A DNA stretch of 36,693 bases from Thermodesulfobacteriota bacterium (GTDB lineage Bacteria; Desulfobacterota; WTBG01; CAIYCZ01; CAIRTM01): NCBI GenBank assembly GCA_028282925.1, contig JANQGV010000259.1, positions 1 through 36,693 of the forward strand. Reading direction: 5' to 3'. The translations under genes and the position numbers were made by a program. Positions 4,141 to 26,001 of this stretch are shown here, piece after piece. Below the pieces are notes generated by a model. That model had not been told where the DNA came from. It did not search any database and saw only the letters and a program-made list of their open reading frames with translations. The first letter of the stretch is position 1. Each line of letters begins with the position of its first letter.

Positions 4141-5058
4141 ATGAAAAAAGACCTTTTATGCCTGTATGATTTGACCAAAGATGATATCGACATCATATTC
4201 GATCGCACCGCGGACCTGAAGGCGCGGCAGAAGCGGGGGGAGCTGTACCATCCGCTGCAGGGCAAAACGCTGGGGATGATATTTGAAAAACCGTCAACCC
4301 GGACCAGGGTGTCATTTGAGGTCGGCACGTACCAGCTTGGAGGGCATGCCGTGTATCTGCGCTGGACCGATACCCAGCTTGGGCGGGGCGAGTCGGTGTA
4401 TGATACGGCCAAAGTGCTTTCCCGTTATCTGGACGGAATCATGATCAGGACATTTAAACAGGAAACGGTTTCGGAGCTTTCCCGCAATGCCGATGTTCCG
4501 GTCATCAACGGCCTGACCGACCTGTATCACCCGTGCCAGATTCTTGCCGATATCTTTACGGTCATCGAGAAGCGCGGGACCTATGAAGGATTGAAGGCCT
4601 CTTATGTAGGCGACGGCAATAATGTGACCCATTCCTGGATCAATGCAGCCCTGCGGCTGAACTTTGATTTGACCATGGCCTGCCCTGCGGGGCACCTGCC
4701 CGATGCCACCGTTTTGGAGCGGGCGCAGCGGGAAGCCTCATCCACCATAACTCTTTTACATGACCCCCGGGAGGCGGTCAAGGGGGCCGATGTGATCAGT
4801 ACCGATACGTGGGTCAGCATGGGGCAGGAAAAGGAATACCGCGAACGCATCAAGGCCTTTAAGGGCTTCCAGGTTAATGAGGATTTACTTTCCTGCTCGA
4901 AAGATGATGTTATGGTTATGCATTGCCTGCCGGCACATCGCGGGGAGGAGATAACCGACGGCGTTATGGATGGAAAAAACTCAGCCATATTTGATCAGGC
5001 TGAAAACCGGCTGCATGTGCAGAAGGCGATACTGGAATTATTAATGGGGAAAAAATAA
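4141..5058 (+). CDS. argF: Ornithine carbamoyltransferase, anabolic
   Basis: This enzyme joins ornithine and carbamoyl phosphate to give citrulline in the cytoplasm. The 305-residue protein has the carbamoyl-phosphate loop STRTR (52-56) after FEKPS, the HPCQ motif in LTDLYHPCQILADIFT, and the ornithine-binding MHCLPAHRGEEIT near the C terminus. The second half has the VGDGNNVTHSW segment. The length and the SMGQEKE stretch fit anabolic OTCases. AAAGGA at 4127-4132 supplies the ribosome site for ATG 4141. argG starts 15 bases after the stop. Confidence 0.97.
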   Translation: MKKDLLCLYDLTKDDIDIIFDRTADLKARQKRGELYHPLQGKTLGMIFEKPSTRTRVSFEVGTYQLGGHAVYLRWTDTQLGRGESVYDTAKVLSRYLDGIMIRTFKQETVSELSRNADVPVINGLTDLYHPCQILADIFTVIEKRGTYEGLKASYVGDGNNVTHSWINAALRLNFDLTMACPAGHLPDATVLERAQREASSTITLLHDPREAVKGADVISTDTWVSMGQEKEYRERIKAFKGFQVNEDLLSCSKDDVMVMHCLPAHRGEEITDGVMDGKNSAIFDQAENRLHVQKAILELLMGKK

Positions 5059-5073
5059 ATAGAAGGGACCGTT

Positions 5074-6294
5074 ATGAGTGATGTGAAAAAAGTCGTTCTT
5101 GCGTATTCGGGAGGTCTTGACACCTCGGTTATTCTGAAATGGCTTCAGGAGACCTATAACTGTGAAGTGGTTGCATTTGCCGCCGATCTCGGGCTGGGTG
5201 AAGAGCTGGTCGGTGTCAGGGAAAAGGCACTTAAAACCGGCGCAAGCACGGTGTATATTGAAGATCTGCAGGAAGAGTTTACCCGTGATTACATTTTTCC
5301 CATGTTTCGGGCCAATGCCGTGTATGAAGGCACCTATCTGCTCGGCACCTCCATCGCAAGGCCCCTGATTGCCAAAAGGCAAATTGAAATTGCTGCAAAA
5401 GAAGGCGCCGATGCCGTAGCGCACGGGGCAACCGGCAAGGGTAACGACCAGGTCCGCTTTGAGCTGTCGTTTCTGGCCCTCAACCCCGGTATTAAAATCA
5501 TCGCGCCCTGGCGTGACCCGAAGTGGGACCTTGTCTCCCGCACCAAAATGATCGACTATGCCGAAAAGCACGGTATCCCGGTGCCGGTTACGGCCGAAAA
5601 GCCGTACTCAAGCGACCGGAACCTGCTGCATATCAGTTTTGAGGGCGGTATTCTCGAAGACCCCTGGAGCGAACCTGATGAGGACATGTTTGTGATGAGC
5701 GTTTCACCGGAAAAAGCGCCCGACACGCCGACGTATATCGAAATTGATTTCAAAGAGGGCGACCCTGTTGCTATCGACGGGCAGGAGCTGAGCCCCGCAA
5801 AGCTGCTTGCGCGCCTCAATGAGCTCGGCGGTGCAAACGGCATCGGCCGGGTGGACCTGGTGGAAAACCGTTACGTGGGCATGAAGTCGCGTGGCGTGTA
5901 TGAAACCCCGGGAGGCACTATTTTACTGGCGGCCCGCAGGGCGGTTGAATCCCTCACCCTCGATCGCGAAGTAATGCGGTTCAAGGATGAAATGATGCCC
6001 AAATATGCAAGCCTTGTGTACAACGGCTACTGGTTTGCCCCGGAACGTGAAATTCTGCAAACGGCAATCGATGAAACCCAGAAAACCGTTACCGGCACCG
6101 TGCGGATGAAACTCTATAAGGGCAACTGTATTGTGGTCGGCCGCAAATCGCCCAACAGCCTGTATCGTGAAGATATGGCGACTTTTGAAGAAGACAGCGT
6201 GTATCATCAGGCAGATGCCGAAGGATTTATTCGATTAAACGCATTGCGGCTGCGGGTACAGGCCGGCAACCGAGGGGGAAGCCATGGCAGCTAA
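5074..6294 (+). CDS. argG: Argininosuccinate synthase
   Basis: This enzyme condenses citrulline with aspartate, using ATP, to argininosuccinate. It has 406 residues, typical of the shorter bacterial ArgG. The N-terminal P-loop is [13 protein letters not shown] (9-21). Further family marks are [15 protein letters not shown] and the [19 protein letters not shown] region. The gene ends by overlapping argH by 11 bases in a different frame, so the two are translationally coupled. An AGAAGGGA ribosome site precedes the ATG at 5074. Confidence 0.97.
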
Positions 6295-7774: not shown

Positions 7775-8851
7775 ATGAAACGTTATATCGTACTACTGCA
7801 GTTCGTGCTCCTTGCGTGTGCGGCCTGTCTGTTTTTGTCCTGCGGTAAGAAAGCCGACCCGTTTCTGTCCATCCAGGTCGCACCTGAACCGGTGAAGCGG
7901 TTCCGCGCTGTTGTGCGGCCTGATACCGTCATACTGTTGTGGAAAGCACCCCGGCAGAATACGGACGATACAGACCTGCTCGATCTGTCGGGCTTTTATA
8001 TCCTGCGGGAGGGTGTCCCGCGCGAAAAAGCCTGCCCGGCCTGCCCGCGCAATTTTCAGCAGATCCACGATCTCGACTATGCAGGGACGCGTGGTCAAAA
8101 GCCGGAACGTGACTGGTTTCGCTATTATGACCGCAGGGTAAAAGAAGGCTATATCTATGCCTATGCCATACAGTGCTACAACGAACGGGGTGTTCGCGGG
8201 CCGAATTCAAAGATCGTTCCGGTTGTGTATGCCGTGCCGTCGGCGGCCCCTGAAGGTGTTGCAATAGAGCGGCGCTACAGACTGCTTGATATTACCTGGG
8301 ACTCTCCGGTGCATCTGGCTGATGGATCTCCGGCTGAGGATATTATCGGATACAATGTGTACCGCAGCAGCAGGCCGGGCATGACGGAACAGTTTCCTTT
8401 GAACCAGGAACTTGTGACCGACACCTTTTACGAGGACGTGCCTGAGAAATATGATGTAACGTATTATTACTCCATCAGAGCGGTGCGTCAGGTTGAGCAG
8501 ACCCTGATTGAAAGTGAACCGTCCGCGGAACAGGTCATTGCCTATCATGACATTGTTCCGCCCAGCGTGCCCCAGATGCTTACAGCCATTCCAACCAAAG
8601 AGGGCATGCTGCTGAAATGGCGGCCCAAGACCGAGCGGGATTTTGCCGGTTTCAACATCTACCGGCGTGAGCCCGGTGACGAGGCGTTTGAGCAGATAAA
8701 TACATCGCTCATTACGGATAGTTCATGGGTGGACACGTCCGTAGAAATACGCGGCCTGTATATATATGCCGTTACCTCTGTTGATGCTTCAGCTGAAGCA
8801 AATGAAAGTGAATTGTCCGAGCCGGTTGAGGTGAAGTACATTCTCAAGTAA
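7775..8851 (+). CDS. Outer-surface lipoprotein with three FN3-like domains and LptM-like N terminus
   Basis: This is a 358-residue predicted lipoprotein. The signal sequence ends FLSC, and the probable lipidated Cys23 is followed by GKKADP. That resembles the CGxKGP start of the small lipoprotein LptM/YifL, which in Escherichia coli lies beside dapF. After it come three fibronectin type III-like units of about 100 residues (about 35-130, 135-240, 245-355). Each has a TW/LLW strand, a GFYI, GYNVYR or GFNIYR motif and a closing YAYAIQ, YYSIRAV or YIYAVTSVD strand. It sits between argH and lysA, a position where I recall Geobacter relatives also having a lipoprotein. The role is unknown; a periplasmic or envelope adaptor is inferred. 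LLAC at Cys15 is an alternative lipobox. Confidence 0.85.
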   Translation: MKRYIVLLQFVLLACAACLFLSCGKKADPFLSIQVAPEPVKRFRAVVRPDTVILLWKAPRQNTDDTDLLDLSGFYILREGVPREKACPACPRNFQQIHDLDYAGTRGQKPERDWFRYYDRRVKEGYIYAYAIQCYNERGVRGPNSKIVPVVYAVPSAAPEGVAIERRYRLLDITWDSPVHLADGSPAEDIIGYNVYRSSRPGMTEQFPLNQELVTDTFYEDVPEKYDVTYYYSIRAVRQVEQTLIESEPSAEQVIAYHDIVPPSVPQMLTAIPTKEGMLLKWRPKTERDFAGFNIYRREPGDEAFEQINTSLITDSSWVDTSVEIRGLYIYAVTSVDASAEANESELSEPVEVKYILK

Positions 8852-8954
8852 CCATATTGTTATCAGGCTGTTGGAAAATAGACGACTGATTCAATAAATT
8901 TGAGTTTTTTCAAACCGATTGGTTGAGAAAAAAGAATAATATGACGCAAGCGCC

Positions 8955-9155
8955 ACCTCCTTTTCTTTGCGCGCCAAAGAAAAGTGGGCAAAAGAAAGGC
9001 GCCCTGCAACTTGACCCCGACTGCAGTCGGGATTGCCCTCGCGGCACGATTTCAGCCGGCGGGGCAACAAACTCGTCCCGGCAGGCCGGGACTCAGACAT
9101 GTCGCCCCTTGTCTCCGGCTGAAATCGCTGCACTCGGCTGCGTTGCAAAGGGAAG
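8955..9155. repeat. Dispersed palindromic repeat, copy 1 (family R1)
   Basis: This is a GC-rich element with several nested inverted repeats: CTTTTCTTTG/CAAAGAAAAG (8960-8969 and 8975-8984), the 16-base palindrome CCCGACTGCAGTCGGG (9016-9031), and GATTTCAGCCGG/CCGGCTGAAATC (9048-9059 and 9115-9126). Bases about 8989-9079 recur with roughly 90% identity at 36602-36693. The boundaries are approximate. It looks like a non-coding, structured intergenic repeat rather than an insertion sequence. Confidence 0.7.
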
Positions 9156-9176
9156 CGACATGCAACAGTTTATATG

Positions 9177-9205
9177 TTGTTTGAATATTACTATCTAAAT
9201 ATATT
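9177..9205 (+). promoter_or_regulatory. Candidate sigma-70 promoter for lysA-dapF
   Basis: A -35-like TTGTTT (9177-9182) and a -10-like TATATT (9200-9205) are separated by 17 bases, 84 bases before the lysA ATG. The surrounding DNA is A+T-rich. It would restart transcription after the repeat element. This is pattern matching only. Confidence 0.4.
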
Positions 9206-9289
9206 ACATATGTTAGATTAAAACCGTGAGTTCTGGCAGGTTTTTTTATTTCGAGATTTAGAAATTTTTATATATGAGGGAATAGATCG

Positions 9290-10546
9290 ATGCATGATTT
9301 TAAGTACCGGGAAAACGAGTTGTATTGTGAAGACACGATGATCGATGCCATAGCGTGTGACGTGGGCACGCCGTTTTACCTGTACAGTCGCAAGACCCTT
9401 GAGAACCATTTTACCGCTTTTGACGGGGCTTTTGCCGGTACGCAGCATTTAACCTGCTATTCGGTGAAATCCAACTCCAATGTGGCTGTTCTAAGGCTGT
9501 TTGCCCGACTGGGGGCGGGGGTCGACGTGGTGTCGGGGGGTGAGATATATCGAGCGGTCAAGGCCGGTATTCCTGCCGATAAAATCGTCTATTCCGGTGT
9601 GGGGAAAACCCGTGACGAAATTGCCTCTGCACTGGAAACCGACATTCTTATGTTCAACGTTGAGTCGTCCCAGGAACTTGCCCTTATAGACGAAGTTGCC
9701 CGGGAAAAAGGATGTAAGGCCAGAATCGCGCTGCGGGTCAACCCGGATGTAGACCCCAAGACGCATCCGTATATTTCAACGGGGCTGAAGAAAAACAAGT
9801 TCGGAATCAAGATCGAAGACGCCCTGGAAGAGTATAAACAGGCCGTCCAAAAAGAACATATTGAGGTTGTGGGTGTGGACTGTCACATCGGGTCGCAGAT
9901 TACCGAGGTGAGCCCTTTTGTGGACGCCCTGAAGCGGGTCAAGAAGTTTGTTGCCCAGTTGCAGCAGGAGGGAATATCAATCCGGTATGTGGATATCGGC
10001 GGGGGGCTGGGGATTACCTATGATAATGAGTCTCCGCCGCATCCCCAGGAATATGCAGAAGCAATTATCAGCGAACTGGGCAATGAGCCGTATACACTTA
10101 TTATGGAGCCCGGCCGTGTTATCGCCGGAAACGCCGGAATACTGGTGACGCGGGTGCTGTTTACCAAGCAGTCGGGGGCAAAAAAATTTATTATTGTTGA
10201 TGCAGGTATGAACGACCTTGTACGGCCGAGCCTGTATGATGCCTATCACGGTATCAGCCCGGTTAAAAACCGGGACCGTGCTACGGTCACGGCCGACATT
10301 GTGGGACCCATTTGTGAAACCGGCGATTTTATTGCGCGCGGACGATCCGTACCCGATTTTGCCGAGGGCGAGTTGATTGCCGTTATGAGCGCCGGGGCCT
10401 ATGGTTTTACCATGTCGTCTAATTATAATTCGCGTCCCCGGGTGGCCGAAGTGCTTGTGGACGGTGATCGTTACCATGTGATACGGGCACGGGAGACGTT
10501 GGAAGATCTGGTACGGCTCGAGCAGATACCGGAGCACCTGCAATAG
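9290..10546 (+). CDS. lysA: Diaminopimelate decarboxylase
   Basis: This PLP enzyme of fold type III (alanine-racemase-like barrel) decarboxylates meso-diaminopimelate to L-lysine. The 418 residues contain Lys60 in YSVKSNSN, the probable PLP Schiff-base lysine. Other marks are VDVVSGGEI, HIGSQI, the phosphate-binding GGGLGI, and EPGR followed by the C-terminal beta-domain motif GPICETGD and YNSRPR. Length is normal. The ATG at 9290 has a GAGGGA ribosome site about ten bases upstream. dapF follows after about 30 bases, so the product of the next-but-one enzyme step is made from the same transcript. Confidence 0.97.
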   Translation: MHDFKYRENELYCEDTMIDAIACDVGTPFYLYSRKTLENHFTAFDGAFAGTQHLTCYSVKSNSNVAVLRLFARLGAGVDVVSGGEIYRAVKAGIPADKIVYSGVGKTRDEIASALETDILMFNVESSQELALIDEVAREKGCKARIALRVNPDVDPKTHPYISTGLKKNKFGIKIEDALEEYKQAVQKEHIEVVGVDCHIGSQITEVSPFVDALKRVKKFVAQLQQEGISIRYVDIGGGLGITYDNESPPHPQEYAEAIISELGNEPYTLIMEPGRVIAGNAGILVTRVLFTKQSGAKKFIIVDAGMNDLVRPSLYDAYHGISPVKNRDRATVTADIVGPICETGDFIARGRSVPDFAEGELIAVMSAGAYGFTMSSNYNSRPRVAEVLVDGDRYHVIRARETLEDLVRLEQIPEHLQ

Positions 10547-18541: not shown

Positions 18542-18573
18542 AAAAAAGAAGGAATAGTTATTCCGCCTTTTTT
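18542..18573. terminator. Shared terminator between converging genes
   Basis: A stem of AAAAAAGAAGGAATA with TATTCCGCCTTTTTT (18542-18556 and 18559-18573, two internal mismatches) has a T-run on each strand. It lies about 190 bases after the chemoreceptor gene. On the minus strand it includes the last codons and stop (Lys-Lys-Ala-Glu-stop) of the SAM hydrolase gene. Confidence 0.8.
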
Positions 18574-19358
18574 ATGTGCAGGGTATCACCACGGGAGGCC
18601 TTGAGTATCTTTTGAGCATTACTGTTTTTGACGGCTATTTCAAGCTGCCCGTTGCTGCCGAAAAGCAGGCAGGGGGTGCCCTCGGGTGCTTCGGCATACG
18701 TGTGCACAAACAGCGATATGGAGGCGTTGCCGCAGGTAAGCACAAGAGGCCCGCCCGGAGACAGCTTTTCCAGGAACTGCCGGTTAATGTTGGTGATGAG
18801 GTTGCCGAAGCGATCGATGTGGATGACTTCTCCCCGGATGTGCGTATCGCCTGTCATAACCGGTCGGGGTATTTCGTTGACTCTATAATCCTGGACCGGC
18901 CTGCCGAATGTTTCGGGGCGGGCACCGCCGGCCAGATGGGCGGCGGCCGGGGCAAAGATGTCCCTGCCGTGAAACGTTGCCGATTGGTCATGGAGCATAT
19001 AGTCCCGGTTTTCCAGCATAAAGACCCCCTGCAGGTCCCGTCCCGCCAGGGCAAAGCTGAAGATGCTGTTGTCGGGCCCTATGAAGGCGTATTTTTCGGT
19101 GGTAACAAGGAGCGGTCTGCGGGTGCTGCCCACCCCGGGGTCGACTACAGCCACATGTATGGTACCTGACGGATAATAAGTATATACTCCTGAAAGGGCG
19201 AGTGTTGCACCTGTGACATCCTGGGGGTTAATTTCGTGGGTTATGTCTATAATAATGCAGTTTGGGCAGTGTGACAGAATGACCCCCTTCATGGCGGCGA
19301 CATAGGTGTCGGCTGTGCCGAAATCGGTGGTAAGGGTGATGATGGGGGCTGAATTCAT
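18558..19358 (-). CDS. SAM hydroxide adenosyltransferase (DUF62 / SAM hydrolase)
   Basis: This 266-residue member of the DUF62 family hydrolyses S-adenosylmethionine to adenosine and methionine. It is related to fluorinase and chlorinase, but bacterial housekeeping members use hydroxide. Visible marks are ITLTTDFGTADTYVAAMKG at the start, IDITHEI, VVDPGVGSTRRP and FIGPDNSIFSFA, then IDRFGNLITNI and GSNGQLEIAV in the C-terminal domain. The Asp, Arg and His residues of the hydroxide-using enzymes appear conserved (DFG, STRRP, DITHEI). The length is typical. It faces the chemoreceptor gene and is transcribed alone. Halogenase activity is not suggested, because the extra fluorinase loop is absent. 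Confidence 0.9.
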   Translation of the reverse strand: MNSAPIITLTTDFGTADTYVAAMKGVILSHCPNCIIIDITHEINPQDVTGATLALSGVYTYYPSGTIHVAVVDPGVGSTRRPLLVTTEKYAFIGPDNSIFSFALAGRDLQGVFMLENRDYMLHDQSATFHGRDIFAPAAAHLAGGARPETFGRPVQDYRVNEIPRPVMTGDTHIRGEVIHIDRFGNLITNINRQFLEKLSPGGPLVLTCGNASISLFVHTYAEAPEGTPCLLFGSNGQLEIAVKNSNAQKILKASRGDTLHIKKAE

Positions 19359-19451: not shown

Positions 19452-19480
19452 TTGACATTACAAAAAAACGTATTTAAAAT
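19452..19480 (+). promoter_or_regulatory. Near-consensus sigma-70 promoter of the metallopeptidase pair
   Basis: A perfect -35 box TTGACA (19452-19457) is followed after exactly 17 bases by TAAAAT (19475-19480). It lies 37 bases before the start codon, in strongly A+T-rich DNA. This is the best promoter match in the window and predicts vegetative, fairly strong expression. Confidence 0.75.
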
Positions 19481-19517: not shown

Positions 19518-21686
19518 ATGAAAGCTCTTTTTCGAGGTGTTTGGGCAGGGCTGTTTTGCTGTTTGGTTCTGGTTGTAGCATCAACTGCGTATGCTGAAAA
19601 TCAATATTGTACTCCGGATTTATATCCCGATTATCCGGTAGAATGTGTCGACAGTTCTTACTGGTGGTGCTGCGCCGATGGTACTGCCTGTGCCTATGAT
19701 CAGTATGGAGGCCTTTGCTGCGCTCCTGCGGCCACGCCGGTTTGTTGTGTGGACTATACCGGCACCTATTACTGGTATTGCGCACAGGGGCAAGCCTGCG
19801 GAACCAGCGACGACGAATGTATCGGCAGTGCAACCACAACGACAACCTCCATTGCCGGGGGCACCACAACAACCACGACCATCGCGGGAACATCCACCAC
19901 CACCGTGCCCGGCGGATCATCCACGACCACTACGACCGGCGGCGGGGGAACCTCCAGCGGTTTCATTGTAGGTGTCAATACCAATGGACAGGACGTAGCT
20001 ACGGTCCAGTCTTCCGGTACCCTGCCGGGTACGAGCCCCTCTGTTTCCAGTGGCATGCTGTATGATCGGGAGGGGCGCGTTGTGCCCCAGATGTACGACC
20101 GGGTGTTCGCACCCCTTGACCCGGATCTGATTGAAAGAGCTTTTGACGATGCCGGGCAGCAGTCCATTGCCGCCGCAGCGATATCGGCTTACGGGGTGGG
20201 CGACCAGCGCAGCTTCTGGGTAAAGGATGAAAAGGACACTGCCTGGCGGCAGGTTGCGGCCACGGTTAAAAAAGAGAGCACCCACGGTATCCTGTTTGTT
20301 GAGGACAGCCTTTCGATTCCCGATGCAACCCTCGATACCTATATCCAGGAATTCGAAGTGATGTACACCGTGGTGGGCGATAATATCGGCACCTTTACGG
20401 ACCGCGACGGCAATAACCAGGTTTCGATCCTGCTGTATGCCATCAATGACGGCGGCAGCGTTTCAGGGTATACCGGCGGGTATTTCTGGATGAAAGACTA
20501 TTTCACAGACGCCGAAACCTCGGCCCAGGGAATCCGCAGCAATGAAATGGATATAATTTATATCCGCGGCGACGAGCCCGCGGGCTGGGAACAGGTAGGC
20601 GGCGACTTCTACGCCAGTAACCTGACAACGCTTGCCCACGAATATCAGCACCTGGTCCATTTCGGCATCAAGGTCTGGGTACCCCAGGACGCCAATGGCG
20701 CTTCAGACACCTGGATCGATGAGATGATGGCCATGGCCACAGAAACCATGTACTTCAAGAAAAAGCTCGCCGATGATCCAACATATACCTTCGACGGCAT
20801 GCAGGGCAGCGGTTATCTTACCCAAAGGATTCAGTATTATGATGCGGACATGAACGGTTCCATCCGCAACGGACACGGCCTGACCTACTGGAACAGCAAC
20901 GGGGATGTGCTGGCAAATTATGCCCTCTCGTATCTTTTCGGGCAGTACTTATCCATCCAGTCGTCCAAAGGGCAGGGCATTTTTAAAGAGATACTGGACT
21001 ATATGCAGGCAAACAGTGTAAACGACTACCGGGCTGTTGCCGGGGCCGCAGCCCAGAGTATTTCGGGGGTCCAGACCTGGGAAGACCTGCTGAAAAGCTG
21101 GGCCATTGCGAATATGGCCAACTCCCCCACGGGACTGTTCGGGTATCAGGGCGCGCTGTCGGTAACGCCGAAGGGGCCCACAACGGCGATAACCACGATG
21201 AACAGCGGCGGTGTTGTCTACCGGCTGGTAACGGGCGAAGCAACCGCTCCTCGCAATGCCGGGCGCGATGTGAAGTTTTATGATGCAAACGGCAATCAGC
21301 TTGCCGGTGGCTCATCTTCCTGTGCAGCATCCCAGGTGCTGGGAGGTGATTCCTTCGAAGCGAATCTGCTGCGCCGTTTCCGGGACGATGTGCTGAAAGG
21401 CACTCCCGACGGCTCGTATCTTGCCGCCCTGTACTACCACCATTCCGACGAACTGAAGGGCCTTATGGCAGCGGACGCCTCTCTGAAGGCAGAAACGGCA
21501 TCCGTGCTGTTGCGGCTGCTGCCGGCTTTGCAGAACATTCTGGAAGGCAATGCACCGGTTGTGCTCCCCGGGCTGCAGGCCGACATTGACGCCCTGTGTG
21601 AAAGCATATCGGGTCTGGCGAGTCCCGGTCTCCAGGACGCCCTGGAAGAGGTGCGGAATATAGCTATTCAGGACATCGTATTATAA
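19518..21686 (+). CDS. Secreted zinc metallopeptidase (M30/hyicolysin-like) with Cys-rich N-terminal module
   Basis: This is a 722-residue exported protein. It has a signal peptide (cleavage near AYAE), then a Cys-rich module (about 25-105) with two units built on WWCCADGTAC and WYCAQGQAC. A Thr-rich low-complexity linker (about 110-150) leads into the peptidase domain. The zinc site is HEYQH (374-378), with Glu402 in WIDEMMAMATE 24 residues after the second His as the likely third ligand. The tail after about residue 595 repeats a pattern found in the downstream paralogue: a Cys, then LRRFRDDVL and LYYHHSDEL. The fold resembles M30 peptidases, and M6-like enzymes cannot be excluded. GGGGGAACC precedes the ATG. 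The substrate is unknown. It forms an operon with the next gene. Confidence 0.85.
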   Translation: MKALFRGVWAGLFCCLVLVVASTAYAENQYCTPDLYPDYPVECVDSSYWWCCADGTACAYDQYGGLCCAPAATPVCCVDYTGTYYWYCAQGQACGTSDDECIGSATTTTTSIAGGTTTTTTIAGTSTTTVPGGSSTTTTTGGGGTSSGFIVGVNTNGQDVATVQSSGTLPGTSPSVSSGMLYDREGRVVPQMYDRVFAPLDPDLIERAFDDAGQQSIAAAAISAYGVGDQRSFWVKDEKDTAWRQVAATVKKESTHGILFVEDSLSIPDATLDTYIQEFEVMYTVVGDNIGTFTDRDGNNQVSILLYAINDGGSVSGYTGGYFWMKDYFTDAETSAQGIRSNEMDIIYIRGDEPAGWEQVGGDFYASNLTTLAHEYQHLVHFGIKVWVPQDANGASDTWIDEMMAMATETMYFKKKLADDPTYTFDGMQGSGYLTQRIQYYDADMNGSIRNGHGLTYWNSNGDVLANYALSYLFGQYLSIQSSKGQGIFKEILDYMQANSVNDYRAVAGAAAQSISGVQTWEDLLKSWAIANMANSPTGLFGYQGALSVTPKGPTTAITTMNSGGVVYRLVTGEATAPRNAGRDVKFYDANGNQLAGGSSSCAASQVLGGDSFEANLLRRFRDDVLKGTPDGSYLAALYYHHSDELKGLMAADASLKAETASVLLRLLPALQNILEGNAPVVLPGLQADIDALCESISGLASPGLQDALEEVRNIAIQDIVL

Positions 21687-21709
21687 ATATATTGACCGGA
21701 AAGGGTAGT

Positions 21710-23704
21710 ATGCAGATACGAAAAAAGATAGCAACAGTATGTTTCATAACGGCACTTGTTAGCCTGTGTGCCGGACCTGTGCTGGGCGCGGGATCGAATG
21801 ATTATATTGCGGTGATCAACACCAACGGTGAAGACGCCTCTTCGACCCAGTCGTCGGGGACCCTGCCGGGAGCAAGTCCGCTGCTGGCGACAGGACCACT
21901 GTACCGCAGCGACGGGAGGATCATTCCCCTGCGCAAAGACAGGATGCTTCCGCGTCTGGACCCGTCCCTGGCAAGGGAAGCCCGGGAGGAAGTGGAAGCC
22001 GGGCAGGGACTTTTTACCATGCAGGCTATCCAGGCCGCGGCAAGTATCGGCGATCAGAAAAGTTTCTGGGTGCAGGATACCCTTGACCCTTCCTGGCGGC
22101 AGGTTGCCGCCACGGTGCAGGCAACCGGGAACCGCTGCGTGCTGTGGATTGACGACACCCTGACAGTCCCCTCCAGTTCCATCAGCCTGTATGTCAATGA
22201 ATTCGACGTGATGTATGATGTAGTGGGTGACAATATCGGCAGTTTTGTAGACCGTGACTCCGACGGCAAGGTGGCCATACTGCTGTATGCCATGAACGAC
22301 GGCGGCTCCATCAGCGGCTATACCGGCGGCTATTTCTGGAGCAAGGACTATTATCTTGATTCCCAAACCAGTCCCCAGGGTATCCGCAGCAATGAGATGG
22401 ATATTGTATATATCCGGGGTGATGAACCGTCGGGCTGGGACAGTGTGGGCGATGATTTCTATGAATACAACCTGACAACCCTGGTGCATGAATACCAGCA
22501 CCTGATGCATTTCGGTATCAAGGTATGGGACAATAACGGCGACTATACCGATACCTGGATCGATGAGATGATGGCCATGGCGTCTGAAACCATGTATTTT
22601 AAGGAAAAGCTCGATAATAACCCGTCATACACCCATTCCGACATGCAGGGCGACGGCTTTCTTGCTTCCCGTATCGCCTATTACAGCCAGGACTTGAACA
22701 GCAGTATTAAAAACGGACACGGGCTTACCTTTTGGGACAATTACGGGGATGTGCTGGCCAACTATGCTCTTTCGTATCTGTTCGGTCAGTATCTGGCTGC
22801 ACAGGCATCGAGCGGCCAGGGTATTTTTAAGGATATTTTGAACTATATGCTCACCAACGGTTTGAACGATTACCGGGCGGTTGCGGGCATTGCCCAGAGC
22901 AGGCTGTCCGGGGTGAGTTCCTGGGAAGATTTGCTCAAAAACTGGGCGATCGCCAACTTTTTAAATCTCTCGAGCGGACCATACGGCTATGGAGGCGCTT
23001 TTTCTTTAACGGCCCAGGGGCCTACATCGAGTAAAATCAATATCAGCAACGGTGGTGTGGTGTACCGGGAGGTCGGCGGCGCATGGAGTGCACCTTCGGA
23101 TGCCGGATCGGCAATAGAGGTATACGGGTTCGATGATGACGGTGCAGCGGGAACCACAACGACTACGGCCGGATCCACTACCACGACTACCGTTGCAGAA
23201 ACAACTACCACCTCGACGTCGGTGCTGGTCACCACCACGACGTCGGTGCTGGTTACCACCACGACGTCGGTGCTGGTTACTACCACAACAACGAGCACGC
23301 CGGCCGGCCCCTGTCCCGCTTCATTGCTGTTCGGCAGAAAGGGTTCAGAAACCGAGCAACTGCGGCTCTTCCGGGATGCGGTTCTGCAGGATTCCGAAGC
23401 GGGAAAAGGGCTTGTTAAGCTCTATTACCGTCATTCCATAGAGTTGTCACGGCTGATGGGTCAGTATCCTGAACTGCGATCCCGGATTATCGCCCTTATT
23501 AACGAGTTACTGCCGGATCTCACTGCCGCTGTTGAAACATACGAATTGTCTGTGCCTGAGCGATCTATGGAAACGCTGCTCGATCTTTGTGACGATATTG
23601 CGGCCGTTGCGGGTCCCGGGCTGCAGGCATCGGTTGAGAGGCTTAAAGGAAAATACACAACCGGTGAGTTGTTGATTGATCTGGGGATTTCGCCGGTATA
23701 TTGA
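21710..23704 (+). CDS. Secreted zinc metallopeptidase, tandem paralogue of the upstream gene
   Basis: This 664-residue protein begins with a signal peptide ending PVLGAG and goes directly into the peptidase region; the Cys-rich module and N-terminal Thr linker of its neighbour are missing. HEYQH lies at 260-264 with Glu286 in WIDEMMAMASE. Long stretches match the upstream protein (IYIRGDEP, GHGLTYWN versus GHGLTFWD, VLANYALSYLFGQYL). A Thr/Val-rich linker with a 24-base DNA repeat lies instead before the C-terminal module (CPASLLFG, LRLFRDAVL, LYYRHSIEL). The ATG at 21710 has AAAGGG upstream; an in-frame TTG at 21692 adds six residues without one. It starts 23 bases after its neighbour. The pair is a clear duplication that has since diverged in layout. 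Confidence 0.85.
   Translation: MQIRKKIATVCFITALVSLCAGPVLGAGSNDYIAVINTNGEDASSTQSSGTLPGASPLLATGPLYRSDGRIIPLRKDRMLPRLDPSLAREAREEVEAGQGLFTMQAIQAAASIGDQKSFWVQDTLDPSWRQVAATVQATGNRCVLWIDDTLTVPSSSISLYVNEFDVMYDVVGDNIGSFVDRDSDGKVAILLYAMNDGGSISGYTGGYFWSKDYYLDSQTSPQGIRSNEMDIVYIRGDEPSGWDSVGDDFYEYNLTTLVHEYQHLMHFGIKVWDNNGDYTDTWIDEMMAMASETMYFKEKLDNNPSYTHSDMQGDGFLASRIAYYSQDLNSSIKNGHGLTFWDNYGDVLANYALSYLFGQYLAAQASSGQGIFKDILNYMLTNGLNDYRAVAGIAQSRLSGVSSWEDLLKNWAIANFLNLSSGPYGYGGAFSLTAQGPTSSKINISNGGVVYREVGGAWSAPSDAGSAIEVYGFDDDGAAGTTTTTAGSTTTTTVAETTTTSTSVLVTTTTSVLVTTTTSVLVTTTTTSTPAGPCPASLLFGRKGSETEQLRLFRDAVLQDSEAGKGLVKLYYRHSIELSRLMGQYPELRSRIIALINELLPDLTAAVETYELSVPERSMETLLDLCDDIAAVAGPGLQASVERLKGKYTTGELLIDLGISPVY
23214..23285 (+). 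repeat. In-frame 24-base tandem repeat in the Thr linker
   Basis: Three near-identical units of 24 bases (core ACGTCGGTGCTGGTTACC) encode Thr-Ser-Val-Leu-Val-Thr-Thr-Thr. Because 24 is a multiple of three, gain or loss of units changes only linker length. Confidence 0.85.
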
Positions 23705-23908: not shown

Positions 23909-24580
23909 GTGAAAGTTTCTGTTGTAATTCCAACACTTAATGAAGAAGCAACGCTTAAAGAAGTTATCGAGGGATGCAAGCCGTACGCCGACGAGCTGAT
24001 TGTGATCGACGGGCATTCAACCGACCGGACGCGGGATGTGGCGGTGTCCCTGGGGGTGCGGGTCGAGCTCGACGGCAGGAAGGGCAAAGGGCAGGCCCTG
24101 CGGCAGTCGGCCGACCACGTCGACGGCGATATTATTGTTTTTATCGATGCAGACGGTTCCCATGATCCGGCCGATATCCCCGAGATTGTTGAGCCGATTA
24201 AGAAAGGCGAAGCCGACCATGTTTCCGGATCGCGATTGATCGGCGGTTCCAGCGAGCTGCACGGCGGTTTTGATGAGTGTTTCCGGCTGATGGGAAGCTC
24301 CTTTATCACCGCCTGTATCAACTGGCGCTTTAAGGTGCAACTGAGCGAAAGTCAGAACGGGTTTCGGGCCATCCGGAAAGATGTTTTCAAACAACTCGGG
24401 CTGCAGGAGAACATTACGACGATCGAACAGGAAATGATTATGCGCACCTTGAAAAAAGGGTTTCGCATGGCCGAGGTGCCCAGCCACGAGCATAAAAGAA
24501 AAATGGGCTACTCGAAAATCAGCATTCGGAAAGTCTGGTTCCGGTATGTGTACACCTTATTTAAATACCTGTTTTTTTGA
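23909..24580 (+). CDS. Glycosyltransferase family 2 (dolichol-phosphate mannosyltransferase-like)
   Basis: This is a 223-residue GT-A fold transferase without membrane segments. It opens with VSVVIPTLNEE (3-13), has VIDGHSTDRT (32-41) and the metal- and nucleotide-sugar-binding DAD (80-82) in FIDADGSHDP. The C-terminal half has SESQNGFRAI and a positively charged end, HKRKMGYSKISIRK, common in polyprenyl-phosphate sugar transferases. The GTG start at 23909 has AGGAGG just upstream and gives the standard GT2 N terminus; an open frame back to 23792 is not plausible. The gene abuts the radical SAM gene with two bases between. A role in making a lipid-linked sugar, perhaps for a GT-C enzyme such as the one at 13899, is inference. 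Confidence 0.88.
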   Translation: MKVSVVIPTLNEEATLKEVIEGCKPYADELIVIDGHSTDRTRDVAVSLGVRVELDGRKGKGQALRQSADHVDGDIIVFIDADGSHDPADIPEIVEPIKKGEADHVSGSRLIGGSSELHGGFDECFRLMGSSFITACINWRFKVQLSESQNGFRAIRKDVFKQLGLQENITTIEQEMIMRTLKKGFRMAEVPSHEHKRKMGYSKISIRKVWFRYVYTLFKYLFF

Positions 24581-24582
24581 TA

Positions 24583-26001
24583 ATGCGCATATTACTTCTT
24601 AACCCCCCCACCCGTACCAATAAAAAATTTATTCGCGAAGGGCGCTGTACCCAGGAGCAAGGTGTCTGGGCTACGCTGTGGCCGCCTGTAACACTGGCAA
24701 CAACAGGGGCGGTGCTTGAGCGGGAAGGATATGACGTCCGCATATGCGACTGTCCCGCCGGCGGGATGTCTATGGAAAAACTGTATGACACGATACGGCG
24801 ATTTTCGCCGGATTGTGTTATCTGGAGCACCGGCACCCCATCTCTTGAAAGCGACCTGCAGTTGGCTGCCGATATCAAAGAGATTGATGCCTCAATCGTT
24901 ACGGCGGTTTTCGGCACACATGTAACCGTGATGGACAGGGAAAGCCTGCTGGGGCATCCGGCGCTTGATTACGTTATACGCAACGAACCTGAAATAACGG
25001 TCCGGGAACTGGTGAGAGCCCTGAAAGAGGGTAAGTCGCCTGAAAACGTTGAGGGGCTAACCTGCCGCGATGCCGGCGGTGAAGTTGTCAGGGCTCCGGA
25101 CAGACCCTTTCTCAAGAATTTGGACGAACTGCCTTTTCCAGCCTGGCACCTTTTTGCTGTCGATCACTATACCCTCCCGTTAAAGGGACGGCGTTTCCTC
25201 ATCGTTGCTCCTCAGCGCGGCTGCCCGTTCAACTGTTCTTTTTGCACCTGTCAAACCTATTACGGTAAAAAGCTTCGCAAGCGGTCGGTTGAACGCGTGC
25301 TGCAGGAGATAGAACATGACATGGAAACGTTCAAGGTGCTTGACTTTTTTTTCTGGGCCGAGACGTTTGTGCTGGATCGGGAGTATGTTGCTTCGCTGTG
25401 CCGCGGTATCCTGGAGCGCGGATTGCGCATTGCCTGGACATGCAACAGCCGGGTCGATATTGTGGACAAGGAGTTGCTGGACCTGATGCGCAGAGCCGGG
25501 TGTTGGATGATCAGTTTCGGGATCGAGTCGGCCGACCAGGCGATCCTTGACGGGGTCGACAAAGGTATACGGGTAGAGCAGATCGGTCCGGCAGTGCAGG
25601 CCGCCAGGGAGGCCGGTATCAAGACCGCCGGCCACTTTATTTTCGGACTCCCGGGAGAGACCGAGCAGACTATGAACAAAACCCTCCGGCTTGCAAAGAA
25701 GCTTGAGATGGATATCGCCCAGTTTTACTGTTGCGTACCGTTTCCCGGCAGCAGACTGTATGACATGGCCGGGGAGCAGGGATGGATCGATGAACCCGAT
25801 TTCGGCCGTTTCAGCCAGGCAGAGGCGATACTGCGGCTTCCTTCGATAGAGCCGCAGGCCGTCGATGCCTTTCGTTCCCGGGCGTATCGAGAGTATTACA
25901 GCAGTGTTGGCGCCTGGTTGCGTGTTTTCAGGATGTTCGAGTGGGGCGGGTTGATGGATATGGGGAGGAAGTTTTTATCGTTCCTGCGCTGGTCGGGATA
26001 G
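24583..26001 (+). CDS. B12-binding-domain radical SAM protein
   Basis: This 472-residue protein combines an N-terminal cobalamin-binding-like domain (starting ILLLNPPT, about 1-150) with a radical SAM core. The [4Fe-4S] ligands are Cys214, Cys218 and Cys221 in RGCPFNCSFCTCQ. The core has GIESADQAILDGVDKGI and FIFGLPGET, and a C-terminal region of about 80 residues. Such enzymes do methylations, ring changes or other C-C chemistry on lipids, sugars or cofactors; the substrate is not readable. The usual B12 DxHxxG motif is not obvious, so cobalamin use is uncertain. It has no ribosome site of its own and starts two bases after the GT2 stop, so it is probably translationally coupled. A sugar- or lipid-modifying role is inferred. 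Confidence 0.85.
   Translation: MRILLLNPPTRTNKKFIREGRCTQEQGVWATLWPPVTLATTGAVLEREGYDVRICDCPAGGMSMEKLYDTIRRFSPDCVIWSTGTPSLESDLQLAADIKEIDASIVTAVFGTHVTVMDRESLLGHPALDYVIRNEPEITVRELVRALKEGKSPENVEGLTCRDAGGEVVRAPDRPFLKNLDELPFPAWHLFAVDHYTLPLKGRRFLIVAPQRGCPFNCSFCTCQTYYGKKLRKRSVERVLQEIEHDMETFKVLDFFFWAETFVLDREYVASLCRGILERGLRIAWTCNSRVDIVDKELLDLMRRAGCWMISFGIESADQAILDGVDKGIRVEQIGPAVQAAREAGIKTAGHFIFGLPGETEQTMNKTLRLAKKLEMDIAQFYCCVPFPGSRLYDMAGEQGWIDEPDFGRFSQAEAILRLPSIEPQAVDAFRSRAYREYYSSVGAWLRVFRMFEWGGLMDMGRKFLSFLRWSG

Follow-up and report, generated by a model that had tools for sequence, protein, structure and literature searches.

A helical C-terminal module related to CFI_box_CTERM on two tandem zinc peptidases and dozens of other exported proteins of a Thermodesulfobacteriota bacterium, a candidate surface-placement tag

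The contig JANQGV010000259.1 of a Thermodesulfobacteriota bacterium (assembly GCA_028282925.1), whose whole length of 36,693 nucleotides is called the window here, carries two adjacent plus-strand genes for paralogous exported zinc peptidases at 19518–21686 and 21692/21710–23704, as a first-pass annotation of this DNA had placed them. Both proteins end in a common module (33% identity), which by its sequence is a divergent relative of the named domain CFI_box_CTERM (NF041770) and hence not a new family. What appears to be new is a variant without the membrane helix, its expansion within one bacterial order and its near all-or-none distribution there. The module is best read as a C-terminal sorting tag in a lineage-expanded version that has no membrane helix, and how it works is inferred. 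That it acts as an interchangeable surface-placement tag recognised by a shared envelope factor, with the Cys at the junction of linker and module as the likely site of chemistry, is a proposal to which we give an even chance.

The resemblance of the two modules is far beyond chance, because a profile built from just these two sequences finds 60 distinct open reading frames (ORFs) of the host genome at E<1e-3. In NCBIfam the two modules are related to NF041770 with 28.4 and 35.3 bits, below the curated cut-off of 40 bits; the NF041770 model itself has 62 places in the host genome at E≤0.1, 33 of them above the cut-off. These 62 places were examined as loci or within the window, and the one on contig C56 did not pass the module profile. 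Applied to the fetched ORFs, the two-module profile gave 61 proteins, 59 of which also match NF041770, and a model of these 61 sequences has 63 host-genome places at E≤1e-4. The first-pass annotation had guessed that other exported proteins of the host might share the module; they do, and more widely than was supposed. In 61/61 proteins the module is C-terminal, the profile match stopping 0–41 residues from the end. Signal peptides and lipoboxes were assigned by simple rules throughout; by this crude criterion a signal peptide is present in 47 of the 54 tagged proteins with a closed N-terminus compared with 6 of the 24 other window genes, and two of the seven tagged proteins that were missed have what looks like a signal peptide by eye. 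Judging by the domains matched (PKD, CarboxypepD_reg, NHL and other propellers, VWA and others), the cargo proteins are unrelated to one another and extracellular in type. Among them are four giant tagged repeat proteins of approximately 2400–2855 residues (L067, L041, L075 and L074, on G000:C261 and C80), which are matched weakly and in part by the legumain model.

Across the 61 host tags an Arg is invariant (61/61), and a Cys (60/61), a Gly (59/61), an Asp (57/61) and a Tyr-Tyr pair (57/61 and 58/61) are nearly so. Other Cys positions vary between tags as a rule; in 29 of 60 tags there is no Cys at all past the junction Cys. The junction Cys alone is near-invariant, and it stands where the linker meets the module, which makes it the foremost candidate for the chemistry. 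An intra-module disulfide was rejected as the general reason for its conservation: the second Cys of the window tags, at a spacing of 92, recurs in 1 of the 58 other host tags that have the junction Cys. This second Cys is kept in the homologous loci L079, L080 and both tags of L082 and not in L081, and a disulfide is possible in the subset of homologues that keep it.

In the order to which the host belongs, matches at E≤1e-5 number 55, 0, 1, 19, 37, 0, 33, 37, 20, 16 and 19 in the genomes G000 (the host) to G010. Thus, the distribution is nearly all-or-none, with 16–55 copies in 8/11 genomes and 0–1 in three (G001, G002, G005), and within one family 20–60 copies stand against 0–1. The order-specific 61-sequence model confirmed the near absence (G001 0, G002 1, G005 0); elsewhere in the class it found 0–2 copies in four genomes, and two less complete genomes gave 5 and 10. 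A survey of the phylum gave a match at E≤1e-5 in 58 of 197 genomes, with 1–5 copies per genome outside the order except for one genome with 14; the survey counts for tag-rich genomes are to be read as 'at least'. Groups of tagged homologues retain the tag across genomes (7/7, 12/13, 8/9, 5/5, 4/4, 4/4, 6/6, 4/4 and 3/3), and the untagged M30-type peptidase in these groups is a contig-end fragment.

For comparison, canonical copies of CFI_box_CTERM were sampled from other families of the phylum, in 20 stretches that surround places with a high NF041770 score. In most of them a Gly-rich linker, CFIATA, FRD and YY are followed, as judged by eye, by a hydrophobic segment, to which a basic tail is usually added; a few of the 20 end earlier or are less clear. 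The variant was represented by 107 tagged proteins from five genomes (G000, G004, G006, G007 and G008; 32 from the host genome), a part of the tagged places in these genomes chosen among the matches listed. In this sample Cys and Arg are each present in 106 and Asp in 104 proteins, and a hydrophobic C-terminal segment occurs in one, the canonical copy of the host genome. The latter (L077:1763–4699, G000:C104) reads CFIATAAYG and has both the hydrophobic segment and the basic tail; it is the only such canonical tag observed in the host genome and sits on a protein with many Cys-rich repeats. The distance from the Cys to the end of the protein is bimodal, with 47 proteins at 62–92 residues and 60 at 102–147. 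The variant shares with CFI_box_CTERM the homologous core (Cys, then LRxFRD, Gly and YY) and the C-terminal position on exported proteins, but it has a CPAxxLxG-like sequence in place of the CFIATAA block and lacks the hydrophobic segment and the basic tail, and the long class gains a second helical half. Copy numbers differ as well, with 16–55 per tag-rich genome of the order and elsewhere mostly 1–5. That the CFIATAA block, hydrophobic segment and basic tail define the family is our own reading of the canonical copies; in the literature searched, no paper naming CFI-box or CFIATA was found.

Structure prediction suggests that the module folds alone as a helical bundle. AlphaFold2 with eight sequences gave eight helices for the module (predicted local distance difference test, pLDDT, 85.3; predicted template modelling score, pTM, 0.75), and the same helices were obtained in a full-length run with a pLDDT of approximately 67–89, the linker being at approximately 25. 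The full-length model (seven sequences, mean pLDDT 44.8) did not resolve the peptidase core and is uninformative on it. Searched against the PDB with Foldseek, the module model had a best E of 3.2, and with VIA-align a best Z of 4.2 over 86 residues; a novel fold does not follow from this missing match. The 61-member profile matched mainly designed helical bundles among PDB sequences (best E=3.3e-7), which we read as helical composition and not as kinship. The first-pass annotation had considered that the segment might be found only in these peptidases and fold as part of their core. The profile search places the module on unrelated cargo, and both the module and the full-length models predict an autonomous fold, so that we reject the idea that it belongs to that core.

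The features of the gene pair are as follows.

19452–19480, plus strand: promoter-like site upstream of the pair (11 of 12 consensus positions)
19518–21686, plus strand: peptidase 1 gene, 722 amino acids, predicted exported M30-type zinc peptidase (HEYQH at 20637–20651; core homology to peptidase 2)
19518–19595, plus strand: signal peptide of peptidase 1 (sequence; crude rule)
19608–19820, plus strand: Cys-rich stretch of two units, residues 31–101 of peptidase 1 (sequence; similar units in L079 and L082)
19833–19961, plus strand: Thr/Gly linker preceding the core of peptidase 1, residues ~106–148 (sequence; DNA repeat)
21321–21683, plus strand: C-terminal tag of peptidase 1, starting at Cys602 (NF041770 E=1.1e-6, 28.4 bits; module alignment)
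21710–23704, plus strand: peptidase 2 gene, 664 amino acids from the ATG, predicted exported M30-type zinc peptidase (HEYQH at 22487–22501; match to lugdulysin 7bb8)
23150–23302, plus strand: Thr/Val linker preceding the tag of peptidase 2, residues ~487–537 (sequence; DNA repeat; pLDDT ~25)
23312–23701, plus strand: C-terminal tag of peptidase 2, starting at Cys541 in the numbering from TTG 21692 (NF041770 E=7.2e-9, 35.3 bits; helical model, pLDDT 85)

For peptidase 2, the start at ATG 21710, which is closely preceded by AAAGGG, is more likely than TTG 21692. The pair likely forms one operon, since the intergenic gap is 5 to 23 bases and no terminator-like site was found on the plus strand in the region of the pair. 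The promoter-like site alone is no evidence, as three such sites were observed compared with 4.2 expected in shuffles. The pair is flanked by genes for a SAM hydroxide adenosyltransferase (SAM-HAT; 18558–19358, minus strand) and a B12/radical SAM protein (24577–26001, plus strand).

Both proteins carry a signal peptide and HEYQH (residues 374–378 in ORF 1 and 266–270 in ORF 2), and their cores are 58% identical (E=4.6e-179; 52% across the whole alignment), which bears out the initial description as tandem paralogous exported HEYQH peptidases. In a search of solved structures, residues 112–434 of peptidase 2 matched the neutral metalloprotease lugdulysin (PDB 7bb8, phmmer E=2.4e-31). HEYQH aligns with HEYQH and NYALSYLF with NYSLSYLF of the lugdulysin chain; the catalytic Glu and Tyr are conserved and are identical in both window peptidases. 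The aligned residues are those mutated in 7bb9 (E242, Y315), a mapping counted by hand with an offset of 27. Both proteins are taken as predicted M30-type zinc endopeptidases on the strength of this alignment, M30 being what we take to be the family of lugdulysin-like peptidases. No Pfam family matches either peptidase at E≤1, and NCBIfam gave a weak match to the MXAN_6640 HExxH family only (E=0.03 and 0.09). The window proteins resemble lugdulysin in the catalytic core, whereas their tags, Cys-rich units and linkers fall outside the matched residues. Among homologues, L079–L082, from contigs titled Thermodesulfobacteriota, delta proteobacterium or Deltaproteobacteria, keep the module wherever they are complete. 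L079 repeats the tandem layout, with a first gene containing the Cys-rich part and Thr linker and a second gene without them, which is truncated by the contig edge. More distant cores are encoded on eight Treponema or Spirochaetaceae contigs (L083–L090), in which the module profile had no match.

The layout described in the first-pass annotation was found again: a Cys-rich part and a Thr linker precede the peptidase core in peptidase 1 only, the core of peptidase 2 begins directly after its signal peptide, and a Thr/Val linker stands before the module of peptidase 2. The Cys-rich part is present as described; it reads, however, as two units instead of a single module. In both genes the linker is encoded by short, tandemly repeated DNA, 27 bp × 2.1 at 19887–19942 and 24 bp × 3.4 at 23206–23286. 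The relocated Thr linker named in the first-pass annotation is no special feature, as Thr-rich stretches occur in 29/107 tagged proteins compared with 7/571 untagged neighbours; in at least three of these seven, the Thr stretch directly follows a lipobox-like Cys. In L191:2751–3854, L191:3914–4492 and L210:19278–19901, a lipoprotein-like N-terminus is directly followed by a Thr-rich linker, a mirror image of the linker-plus-tag layout. The idea that linker and Cys-rich module are shuffled gained support from L082, where a second, different zinc peptidase (weak M43/M10 matches) has a Thr linker, a Cys-rich unit, a Thr linker and the tag. In L081 an M6 peptidase carries the tag.

Tagged, untagged and lipoprotein forms of the same cargo were also found. 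A neighbour of a tagged protein, 62% identical to it over 373 residues, ends in an FN3-like module instead, and G005 has an untagged protein (L267) that shares 54% identity across 388 residues with a tagged Lcl_C protein (L246). Lcl_C and rhodanese-like cargo occur with a lipobox N-terminus and no tag as well, the rhodanese-like pair being only 29% identical over 127 residues. Because Lcl_C is present in 11/11 genomes of the order, the loss of the tag in G001, G002 and G005 is not a loss of the Lcl_C cargo. In addition, fewer tagged (5/84) than untagged exported proteins (42/209) have a lipobox-like N-terminus (Fisher p=0.0025). These swaps on the same cargo support the idea of an interchangeable surface-placement module. 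The FN3-like sequence is itself a second recurring C-terminal module (approximately AGFNIYR...GPVSATPR) on exported proteins of the host genome and G007–G010 (L078:3343–4167, 4774–6288 and 8255–10009; L239, L245, L250, L254 and L266), and once it replaces the helical tag of an adjoining homologue.

Building on the homology, signal peptides, C-terminal position, conservation, expansion pattern, cargo swaps and predicted independent fold described above, we infer a surface location, a partner and a role for the Cys as follows. The peptidases would leave the cytoplasm by Sec. Their last 120–130 residues would form an autonomous helical module of the CFI_box_CTERM kind, which has been put on dozens of unrelated exported proteins. 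After export, a shared envelope factor would recognise the module and thereby either keep the cargo at the cell surface or pass it through the outer membrane. Attachment, modification or cleavage would probably take place at the near-invariant Cys where linker and module join, and the Thr/Gly/Ser linkers may give reach. More tentatively, and with distinctly less confidence, we propose a helix-less, folded-module attachment route with a reactive junction Cys, derived from the helix-anchored CFI-box tag, served by an undescribed enzyme or receptor and acting on approximately 60 substrates per genome in one order.

Several points weigh against the surface-placement proposal. Among exosortase, the type II secretion pseudopilin and legumain, the candidates searched for in the 11 genomes of the order, no partner gene following the tag was found, and the neighbourhoods of tagged genes (678 ORFs in 80 stretches from five genomes and the window) revealed no recurring partner candidate. 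The two length classes could mean two functions. The junction Cys is absent from 6 of 19 tags of G002 and other families of the class compared with 1 of the 107, and it is thus not needed by every family member. The comparison of lipobox-like N-termini given above was made by crude rules with an untagged set that includes membrane proteins, and several of the five tagged calls look like false positives. Finally, the same cargo family bears other C-terminal modules, FN3-like and weakly dockerin-like, which makes the tag one option among several. The Cys-less tags are those of L272, L273, L274, L279, L290 and L296 from other families of the class; L274, L279 and L290 resemble one another and may form a single group of orthologues.

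Neighbourhood clustering gave 20 clusters present in at least three genomes, which consist of tagged groups or of untagged genes seemingly unconnected by sequence; among the untagged clusters, the Pfam comparison covered the SAM-HAT and radical SAM genes of the window, homologues of which are also present in the fetched stretches of G004 and G006. As partners, exosortase (PF09721 only in G003, G005 and G006, 3/11, and not in the host genome), the type II secretion pseudopilin T2SSG (11/11) and legumain (1/11, host only) were rejected because none tracks the tag. C-terminal models of type IX secretion were not among the families matched by window proteins at E≤10, nor among the best 25 of 63 families matched by the set of 61 tagged proteins. 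As a sorting or attachment tag, if it is one, the module would mark out the surface proteome of a bacterial order about which little is known, and it would imply a partner still to be discovered. It would then also show that a C-terminal tag anchored by a helix can become soluble in the course of evolution. The sharp presence or absence within one family makes this partner findable by gene-content comparison, as for earlier C-terminal tags.

A rather improbable alternative is that the module binds a surface scaffold or matrix non-covalently, in the manner of dockerin and cohesin, the Cys forming an intermolecular disulfide or being structural. Such docking would account for a small C-terminal helical module, predicted to fold alone, on dozens of unrelated secreted proteins, and the C-terminus of one Lcl_C protein of the order (L242:775–2769, G006) weakly resembles a dockerin (Pfam Dockerin_1, E=0.0082, below the cut-off). 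However, no receptor domain was identified among the genes examined, dockerin models matched no window protein at E≤1 and were not among the best 25 of 72 families for the 61 tagged proteins, and a near-invariant junction Cys exceeds what docking needs.

We consider it unlikely that the module is recognised by an outer-membrane transport route such as type II secretion, with the cargo being released and not retained. The cargo is of the extracellular type expected in that case, and the T2SSG gene is present throughout the order; this includes, however, the three genomes with 0–1 tags, and many exported proteins adjoining tagged genes have no tag. To our knowledge, no general C-terminal recognition domain of type II secretion has been described.

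Slightly less probable still is an ordinary CFI-box tag, whose C-terminal helix would insert in the membrane, upon which an intramembrane protease would cleave the tag on the model of MYXO-CTERM and myxosortase. The core is homologous, as the NF041770 matches (59/61 proteins, 33/62 places above the cut-off) attest, canonical copies mostly combine the Cys with a hydrophobic segment and basic tail, and conserved Cys residues are needed for MYXO-CTERM cleavage according to passages of PMC11980579; but the hydrophobic segment in only 1/107 tagged proteins, the canonical copy, already weakens this explanation. A peptidase-specific domain for substrate binding or intramolecular chaperoning, duplicated along with the gene pair, is hardly tenable: the module does follow the M30 core in the 4/4 complete homologues of L079–L082, but 59 other host proteins carry it and the tag-rich genomes G003 and G007 have no M30 core among the matches listed.

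Compared with known systems, the surface-placement tag proposed here resembles dockerins in being a small C-terminal helical module on many secreted proteins. Dockerins have calcium-binding repeats; no sequence relation to them was seen, and the module has a near-invariant Cys instead. With PEP-CTERM and exosortase, as described in passages of PMC1569441, it shares the many-to-one logic of a C-terminal tag and a sporadic distribution, but it has no membrane helix or basic tail, and exosortase, in 3/11 genomes, does not follow it. In passages of PMC11980579, MYXO-CTERM is described as a tag whose Cys is invariant and in which dozens of exported proteins per genome end; the module matches it in all these respects, its own Cys being near-invariant. 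MYXO-CTERM consists of a short motif, a transmembrane helix and an Arg-rich tail, whereas here a folded helical module stands without a membrane helix, and no enzyme was identified among the candidates examined. MYXO-CTERM, so described, is the nearest working precedent, and the same type of enzyme is unlikely because its membrane helix is missing here. That some sixty exported proteins with little else in common share one small tail hints at an uncharacterised route by which proteins are positioned at the cell surface.

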